From NCBI GenBank assembly GCA_024397995.1, contig CP073746.1, forward strand, positions 3,284,001 through 3,348,000: a DNA stretch of 64,000 bases. Reading direction: 5' to 3'. Under the pieces are notes generated by a model. That model was not told the origin of the DNA. It made no database searches and saw only the letters and a program-made list of their open reading frames with translations. This DNA is from a bacterium SCSIO 12827. Its GTDB lineage: Bacteria; Pseudomonadota; Alphaproteobacteria; Rhodospirillales; Casp-alpha2. This document shows positions 62,672 through 63,787 of the stretch, piece after piece (position 1 is the stretch's first letter; each line of letters begins with the position of its first letter). Position numbers and translations under genes: made by a program.

Positions 62672-63787
62672 ATGGCACGCAACAAAATCGCGCTCATCGG
62701 CGCCGGTAACATCGGGGGCACGCTGGCCCATCTGGTCGGCCTCAAGGAACTGGGCGACGTAGTGCTTTTCGACATCGTCGACGGCATTCCCCAGGGCAAG
62801 GCCCTGGACATCGCTGAATCGGGCCCCGTCGAAGGCTTTGATTCCAACATGAAGGGTGCGAACAGCTACGCCGCCATCCGCGGCGCCGATGTCTGCATCG
62901 TCACCGCCGGCGTCGCCCGCAAGCCGGGCATGAGCCGCGACGACCTGATCGGCATCAACACTTCCGTCATGCAGTCCGTGGGTGCGGGCATTAAGAAGTA
63001 CGCGCCCAACGCCTTCGTCATCTGCATCACCAACCCGCTCGACGCCATGGTTCAGGTCCTGCGCGATGCCTCGGGCCTGCCCCACCGCAAGGTCGTCGGC
63101 ATGGCCGGCGTTCTGGACAGTGCGCGGTTCCGCCATTTCCTGGCCGAGGAATTCAAGGTTTCCGTCGAAGACGTCACCGCCTTCGTTCTGGGTGGTCACG
63201 GCGACAGCATGGTGCCGTCGGTGCGCTATTCCACGGTCGCCGGCATTCCCGTGCCCGACCTGATCAAGATGAAGTGGACGACCCAGGAAAAAATCGACGC
63301 CATCGTCCAGCGCACCCGCATGGGCGGCGGCGAGATCGTCGCGCTGCTGAAGACCGGCTCCGCGTTCTACGCGCCTGCGTCTTCCGCCATTCAAATGGCC
63401 GAAAGCTACCTGAAGGACAAAAAGCGCGTCCTGCCCTGCGCCGCCTATCTGTCGGGCGAATACGGGGTTAAGGGCATGTACGTCGGCGTGCCGACGGTGA
63501 TCGGCGCCCGGGGTGTCGAGCGCATCGTCGAGATCCAGTTGGATGCCGACGAGAAGGCCATGTTCAAGGCATCGGTTTCGGCCGTGAAGAGCCTGGTCAC
63601 CGTGACCCAGCGTCTGATGAAGAAGGCTGCCGCCGCGGCCAAGAAGGCGCCGGCCAAGAAAAAGGCACCGGCGAAGAAAAAGGCGCCGGCGAAGAAAGCT
63701 GCGGCGAAAAAGCCGGCCGCCCGCAAGGCCCCGGCGAAGAAGGCCGCCGCACCGGCGGCCGCTTCCACGCCGCCGACGAAGTCGTAG
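62672..63787 (+). CDS. mdh: Malate dehydrogenase with a C-terminal lysine/alanine-rich tail
   Basis: A 371-residue NAD-dependent malate/oxaloacetate enzyme of the LDH-like type. [18 protein letters not shown] (NAD site), [14 protein letters not shown] (substrate Arg), [26 protein letters not shown] and [18 protein letters not shown] (catalytic His) are all present. The normal enzyme ends near residue 315. From Met316 a 56-residue tail rich in Lys, Ala and Pro follows (KKAPAKK-type repeats). Its DNA is a tandem 18-bp repeat (63644-63697). Such a basic tail resembles histone-H1-like proteins and is not usual on Mdh. It lies upstream of sucC, as is common in alphaproteobacteria. Confidence 0.95.

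Follow-up and report, generated by a model that had tools for sequence, protein, structure and literature searches.

The closest described systems are AlgP and PhaF of Pseudomonas, for which the available portion of one source (PMC9239181) indicates that KPAA repeats bind DNA, that the H1-like domain of PhaF is thought to tether a cargo other than DNA (the PHA granules) to the nucleoid, and that an H1-like KPAA domain positions polyphosphate (polyP) granules in Pseudomonas aeruginosa. Lysine repeats in TopA were likewise found to stabilise that enzyme on DNA, according to the part available of PMC7398561, and lysine-rich regions in L21, together with regions in TopA, are catalogued in the part available of PMC6821194. 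The word 'malate' has 0 occurrences in the main text of that catalogue (as distinct from its supplements), and a literature search for a lysine tail on malate dehydrogenase (Mdh) or on SucA/OGDH, whose scope left out most subscription papers and included some sources only in part, found no report of one. Lysine-rich tails are known on DNA- and RNA-associated proteins; to judge from that search, their presence on Mdh and on SucA appears to be new.

The mdh gene considered here lies at one end of a 64,000-nucleotide stretch of DNA from an environmental alphaproteobacterium, which is termed 'the window' throughout and was analysed as a whole. Its product resembles the NAD-dependent malate dehydrogenases of alphaproteobacteria (4ros/5ujk and 3gvh) in its core (residues 1-315, with 76-78% identity in fold-search alignments), in both of its domains and in its family score, but the solved chains are 320-324 residues long whereas the enzyme encoded here has 371 residues and a basic tail. 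That tail shares with AlgP and PhaF the disordered, K/A/P-rich C-terminal repeats on something other than a DNA protein (disorder of the Mdh tail being predicted); there, however, the cargo is a granule and the repeat is KPAA, while the tail described here belongs to a metabolic enzyme and is built on KAPAKK. With TopA and L21 it shares a lysine-rich, low-complexity C-terminus, although these are nucleic-acid proteins whose tails contain acidic residues in this genome and the Mdh tail has none. In composition it also resembles the HC2 nucleoproteins (PF07382), but scores below the cut-off of that family.

The enzyme and its tail in the window

The mdh open reading frame occupies positions 62672-63787 of the forward strand and encodes 371 residues plus a stop codon (63785..63787). 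Its catalytic core, residues 1-315 (62672..63616, forward strand), scores 425.2 bits against TIGR01763, above the curated cut-off of 351.85, and contains both Ldh domains, Ldh_1_N and Ldh_1_C. The best solved relatives of the core are 4ros/5ujk from Methylobacterium extorquens and 3gvh from Brucella melitensis, and the matches to them stop at query residues 315 and 308, respectively. Residues R83, R89, N121, D149, R152 and H176, which we take to be the catalytic residues, are invariant in 27 of 27 aligned Mdh sequences.

Immediately downstream of the core, codon 316 (Met), which begins at 63617, opens a tail of 56 residues (316-371; 63617..63784, forward strand) composed of 24 Ala, 18 Lys, 8 Pro, 2 Ser, 2 Thr, 1 Met and 1 Arg, with a net charge of +19 and no aspartate or glutamate. 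Within it, three tandem 18-bp units encoding KAPAKK are found at 63644..63697 on the same strand (Tandem Repeats Finder: 3.0 copies, 91% matches). An earlier note on this DNA had described both the Lys/Ala/Pro tail beginning at Met316 after a complete Mdh and the three repeats at these positions; the reading frame, the profile matches and the composition agree with the former, and the repeat search with the latter. A six-frame scan of the whole window recovered 7 stop-free segments of 56 residues with at least 18 lysines, the maximum being 18 and the last of them starting at 63617. The protein encoded here is a complete 315-residue malate dehydrogenase core followed by a 56-residue basic tail.

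An AlphaFold2 model built from a 27-row alignment (mean pLDDT 78) displays a folded core and a terminal helix spanning residues 292-325; pLDDT falls below 50 across residues 328-371, as it also does in one stretch of the core (46-58), and the tail is predicted to be intrinsically disordered from residue 328 onward. The earlier note's term 'histone-H1-like basic tail' holds as a description of composition, but the scores of the tail against curated H1-like families lie below their cut-offs (18.5 versus 40 for HC2, 19.6 versus 80 for NF038053), so that a likeness to such proteins, and not membership among them, is claimed. Used alone as a query within its own genome, the tail retrieved with confidence only itself, and motif patterns gave more. 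A DNA search of a plasmid collection with mdh returned 7 records, rhizobial and from Methylobacterium; none of their matches, which end at base 864 or 927 of the query, reaches the tail.

Distribution and divergence of the tail

The C-terminus of Mdh was read from stop to stop in a set of 61 genomes, consisting of the window's own and 60 relatives. The family to which the window belongs contributes 37 genomes, and the Mdh end could be read in 31 of them (G017, G018, G033 and G034 yielded no match, G009 only an N-terminal fragment, and in G019 the contig ends); all 31 possess net-positive Mdh ends of 11-136 residues, at least 15 residues long in 29. The comparison of Mdh lengths in close relatives that the earlier note had proposed thus returned basic ends throughout the readable genomes of the family, and the possibility it had raised, that all relatives stop near codon 316, proved false. 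Other families of the order are represented by 24 genomes, one per family, of which 23 were readable (G047 gave no match); tails of at least 15 residues (34-163) are present in 6 of these 23, and the remainder stop 1-12 residues past position 315. Across these genomes the extension varies from 1 to 163 residues. In G039, G040, G050 and G052 Mdh is untailed, although KKAxAKK motifs occur elsewhere in those genomes.

Beyond this set, a scan of a genome collection provided named loci, and among the best 80 listed matches to the Mdh core, 14 carry a tail of at least 15 residues. These derive from metagenome-assembled genomes (MAGs) of Rhodospirillales and other alphaproteobacteria, including a Hwanghaeella MAG (150 residues) and a Kiloniellaceae MAG (27 residues), and from the cultured Hwanghaeella grinnelliae Gri0909 (84 residues; L119). 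One MAG, 'Rhodospirillales bacterium CG15_BIG_FIL_POST_REV_8_21_14_020_66_15' (L072), is 98% identical and points to the close kin of the window. In the other 66 of the 80, including those from Rhodobacteraceae and Sphingomonas, Mdh stops at most 7 residues from position 315. Additional matches from the order and the class contain tails that are differently worded, such as KKKTAKRKTAKKK repeats (L261, L262) or an arginine-rich sequence (L266). The order and class searches were queried with the tailed protein and returned their best matches first, so that L182-L210 and others lean toward tails, and 60 further regions were picked by hand (48 came from the order search; of the 12 that came from the class search, several were chosen for a likely tail); statements of tail frequency are therefore confined to the set of 61 genomes and to the 80 named loci.

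The same comparisons bear upon whether the tail is genuine. The genome is a single contig, and G004, which belongs to the same genus and is treated as a different species, encodes an identical 56-residue tail; a frameshift or assembly error is therefore very unlikely, and tails that remain in frame are found family-wide. Since G004 has the same tail, while that of G006 has two KAPAKK units within 51 residues and that of G001 is 45 residues long, the 18-bp repeat is, to judge from these sequences, younger than the tail that contains it.

Mdh was recovered at 240 loci (seven of which are the window's own gene again), and 220 distinct sequences were kept in which a stop is present, the C-terminus is readable and the match begins within the first 5 residues. 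Tails of at least 15 residues are found in 83 of the 220, and in every one of those 83 the net charge is at least +0.24 per residue. When pooled (4199 residues), the 83 tails consist of 36% K, 32% A, 9% P, 5% R, 4% T and 4% V, such that K and R together account for 41% and D and E for 1.6%; F, W and Y are absent and bulky hydrophobic residues are few. The sequence and the length of the tail vary, but its charge does not.

On a quick tree of the Mdh core, the presence of the tail requires 22 changes, or 18 and 10 when branches with support below 80 and below 95, respectively, are collapsed; 50 shuffles of the labels on the uncollapsed tree required at least 59 changes (mean 68). Tail presence is therefore inherited, yet has often changed (at least 10 times), with gain and loss not separated by the tree. 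Aligned tail codons were compared among 44 sequences, grouped into 12 sets of relatives, in which the pairs are non-independent and the MAFFT alignment of repeats favours matches: differences of a single base comprise 920 synonymous and 250 non-synonymous changes, and a further 713 codons differ at several bases, with 0 synonymous. Exchanges between K and R number 22 versus 6 between K and E. Because a single transition suffices to convert lysine to either residue, the scarcity of acidic replacements suggests that the charge of the tail is under selection.

A second tail in the operon, and the charge of the enzyme body

A terminator-like hairpin with 11 GC pairs and a downstream T run (63797..63823, forward strand) lies between mdh and sucC; it is a consensus match only, and the 64-kb stretch contains 3 such sites versus 1.7 expected. 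The start of sucC (an open reading frame named by sight) occupies 63873..64000 on the same strand and continues beyond the window, where the gene order is sucC-sucD-sucA-sucB-lpd (SucA assigned by Pfam, the others by sight). The sucA gene itself (L305:2418-5426, equivalent to G000:C1:3350017-3353025, outside the window) encodes the Pfam domains E1_dh and OxoGdeHyase_C up to residue 973, and its product ends in an acid-free K/A/P tail, LTVQAPPRARTKAPAKAPTKTPAKAPAKAKK.

A SucA match was present in 58 of the 61 genomes; 53 loci were taken, and 52 C-termini were read (the end was not reached in L329). All 31 of the family genomes that were read possess a basic SucA tail, mostly of K, A and P, with a length of 15-70 residues and a net charge of +5 to +25. 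SucA from the 21 genomes outside the family has, for the most part, a short end with QPFxR or a similar sequence, the exception being G042, with a 49-residue end that includes a basic K/A/P stretch. Of 51 genomes with both ends read, 28 combine a SucA end of net charge at least +5 with an Mdh tail of at least 15 residues, 13 have neither, 6 the Mdh tail only and 4 the SucA tail only (Fisher p 1e-4, a figure that ignores kinship and largely sets one family against the rest). In one genus (g7), three genomes have Mdh tails of 11, 18 and 22 residues and SucA tails of 67-70, and a fourth (G035) has tails of 43 and 69. SucC has no tail, extending at most 2 residues beyond the reference at all 186 loci that could be read (a count that includes duplicates), and citrate synthase ends within 1 residue of its reference in 26 of the 28 read, with extensions of 13 basic residues in G010 and of 6 residues in G015. 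The SucA tail is a counterpart of the Mdh tail on a second enzyme of the operon.

The body of the enzyme also differs between tailed and untailed sequences. The mean net charge of the Mdh core is +6.7 in the 83 tailed versus -4.4 in the 137 untailed sequences, and core charge is correlated with tail length (rho 0.72). The core is net positive in 81 of 83 tailed and in 28 of 137 untailed sequences (ranging up to +14 in the latter), which means that the body can be basic when no tail is present. The gain of charge is spread across the core and is strongest in residues 61-90 and 271-300. In phylogenetic contrasts, calculated on a midpoint-rooted quick tree whose branch lengths were each increased by a small constant, the association is weaker (r 0.285, sign-flip p about 0.01, 219 contrasts), and SucC of the same loci shows no correlation (r -0.076, p 0.35, 168 contrasts). 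Of 10 sister pairs on supported branches, 2-4 differ in the trait; they almost always do so in the direction that was predicted, but are too few for significance (median p 0.25). A genome-wide basic shift is unsupported, because in the raw data the three proteins compared as controls (SucC, citrate synthase and enolase) show greater acidity where Mdh is tailed, and Mdh itself shifts the opposite way. As an observation of its own, both citrate synthase and enolase, compared across 21 genomes, are more acidic in those with tailed Mdh, which hints at a wider acidic shift in these lineages.

These charges bear on one alternative reading, in which the Mdh and SucA tails bind acidic partners (citrate synthase, SucC or others) in an electrostatic cluster of TCA enzymes that would steer dianionic intermediates (oxaloacetate, malate and 2-oxoglutarate) between active sites. 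Both Mdh and SucA handle dicarboxylates, they are encoded in one operon, and longer Mdh tails accompany a more acidic citrate synthase (rho -0.68, n 24). Citrate synthase at first appeared to be a specific partner, but this candidate was weakened by the finding that enolase, which is no expected partner, is likewise more acidic (rho -0.52, n 21, against -0.65 for citrate synthase in that set), such that the acidic shift looks general; moreover, the raw correlation of SucC vanishes under phylogenetic contrasts, and the figures for citrate synthase and enolase are raw. A metabolon of Mdh and citrate synthase is itself a debated idea, as far as the available portions of PMC11461322 and PMC8455617 indicate. 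We regard this reading as doubtful.

A second alternative is that the tail is a nearly neutral, low-complexity expansion, in which slippage at GCN and AAR codons lengthens a tolerant C-terminus. The range of lengths, from 1 to 163 residues, the fresh 18-bp tandem repeat of the window and the K/A tails on several other proteins of the genome all accord with this suggestion, but even deeply diverged tails contain few acidic residues, single-base codon differences are mostly synonymous, the adjoining SucC gains at most 2 residues in 186 of 186 loci, and the folded body of Mdh is more basic as well. We find it improbable. Because the tail is old and strongly basic, has often changed in length, is matched by that of SucA and sits upon a basic body, binding of a polyanion or a partner is favoured over neutral expansion. 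To that extent the meanings entertained in the earlier note (attachment to nucleic acid or to acidic partners, or a tag) find partial support, the target that would be bound being one that we infer.

Additional K/A/P tails in the window's genome were located with KKAxAKK and KAxAKA patterns, as opposed to a systematic scan of the proteome. They occur on S1, L21, TopA, trigger factor and GlnD (named by sight) and on PntA (Pfam AlaDh_PNT); those of S1, L21, trigger factor and PntA include acidic residues, whereas the Mdh and SucA tails have none. The genome also encodes a free histone-H1-like protein of 157 residues (L304:2217-2690, reverse strand) with repeats of the KKPAVKKAAA type, which passes the HC2 cut-off (78.6 versus 40). 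PntA, the transhydrogenase alpha subunit (L156:1444-2700, reverse strand), has a short K/A tail and then a stretch with acidic residues, and a similar arrangement is found in G006 (L414); in GlnD (L371, G000:C1 about 3882700-3883300) the ACT domains are followed by a long K/A/P tail. A K/A/P-rich stretch near the N-terminus of an ATP-grasp-like protein (L300, reverse strand) and K/A/P tails on antiporter-like and exporter-like proteins of G024 and G041 (L406, L408) were also seen, these proteins again being named by sight. Within the window, an open reading frame for NadA (by sight; 59420-60664) ends in PPAKANQETKSQNGKGKAAA, which is mildly basic and disordered-looking.

A possible tether and its meaning

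The reading that we prefer, with a probability of roughly 45%, is that the tail is a selected, disordered polycation that tethers the enzyme electrostatically and without specificity to a polyanion, for which nucleic acid is the likeliest candidate; the binding itself, the identity of the polyanion and any benefit to metabolism are what we infer. Mdh is oligomeric, and several tails per oligomer, acting together with a slightly basic body, would bind a polyanion weakly and multivalently. The nucleoid DNA, the ribosome or other RNA, or both, would be the most likely polyanion, and the tether would bring Mdh and, in the window's family, the 2-oxoglutarate dehydrogenase complex (via the SucA tail) to a common scaffold, leaving the catalytic site of Mdh unchanged.

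In favour of such a tether, four other tailed proteins of the genome (TopA, L21, S1 and trigger factor, identified by sight) are associated by name with ribosomes or DNA, and the free 157-residue protein scores as HC2; the KPAA repeats of AlgP and PhaF and the lysine repeats of TopA provide precedents. Against it, many related Mdh proteins are tailless, some untailed cores are also basic, the tail scores below the H1-like cut-offs, and six genomes have an Mdh tail without a SucA tail. Against nucleic acid in particular, PntA and GlnD (the latter by sight) are not nucleic-acid enzymes and bear K/A tails, and therefore the motif alone does not mean nucleic acid.

PntA works at the membrane, and its short tail is in keeping with the possibility that the tether is to some other polyanion, such as polyphosphate granules, storage granules or anionic membrane lipids. 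The positioning of polyP granules by a KPAA domain in P. aeruginosa (PMC9239181, in its available portion) lends this possibility a precedent; nevertheless, the lack of aromatic residues and the scarcity of bulky hydrophobic ones in the pooled tails speak against a membrane, and the ribosome or DNA association of the four further tailed proteins (by sight) speaks against other polyanions in general. We consider it unlikely. It is highly improbable that the tail is instead a solubility or stability tag, or a target for lysine acylation that reports acetyl-CoA or succinyl-CoA: the segment is dense in lysine and predicted to be disordered, and the enzyme adjoins succinyl-CoA synthetase and 2-oxoglutarate dehydrogenase, but a solubility tag would not require the absence of acidic residues.

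If a tether to nucleic acid were extended to its furthest consequence, part of the TCA cycle might be chromatin-bound in the window's family and, as a parallel development, in other lineages of the class. Histone-H1-like tails would then keep Mdh, aided by its basic body, and, by way of SucA, the 2-oxoglutarate dehydrogenase complex on the nucleoid or RNA. Respiratory metabolism would in this way be coupled in space to the chromosome, and release by lysine acylation, from acetyl-CoA or succinyl-CoA, might be possible; we offer this as a speculation that is distinctly unlikely to hold in full.

The clustering of TCA enzymes has been debated because the contacts involved are weak. The proteins described here form a natural and repeated comparison, in which related malate dehydrogenases exist with and without a polycationic tail and a similar tail is present on a second TCA enzyme, and the dependence of localisation and flux upon the tail is testable by a single truncation in a cultured bacterium. 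These observations suggest that H1-like tails can join metabolic enzymes, beyond the DNA- and RNA-associated proteins.
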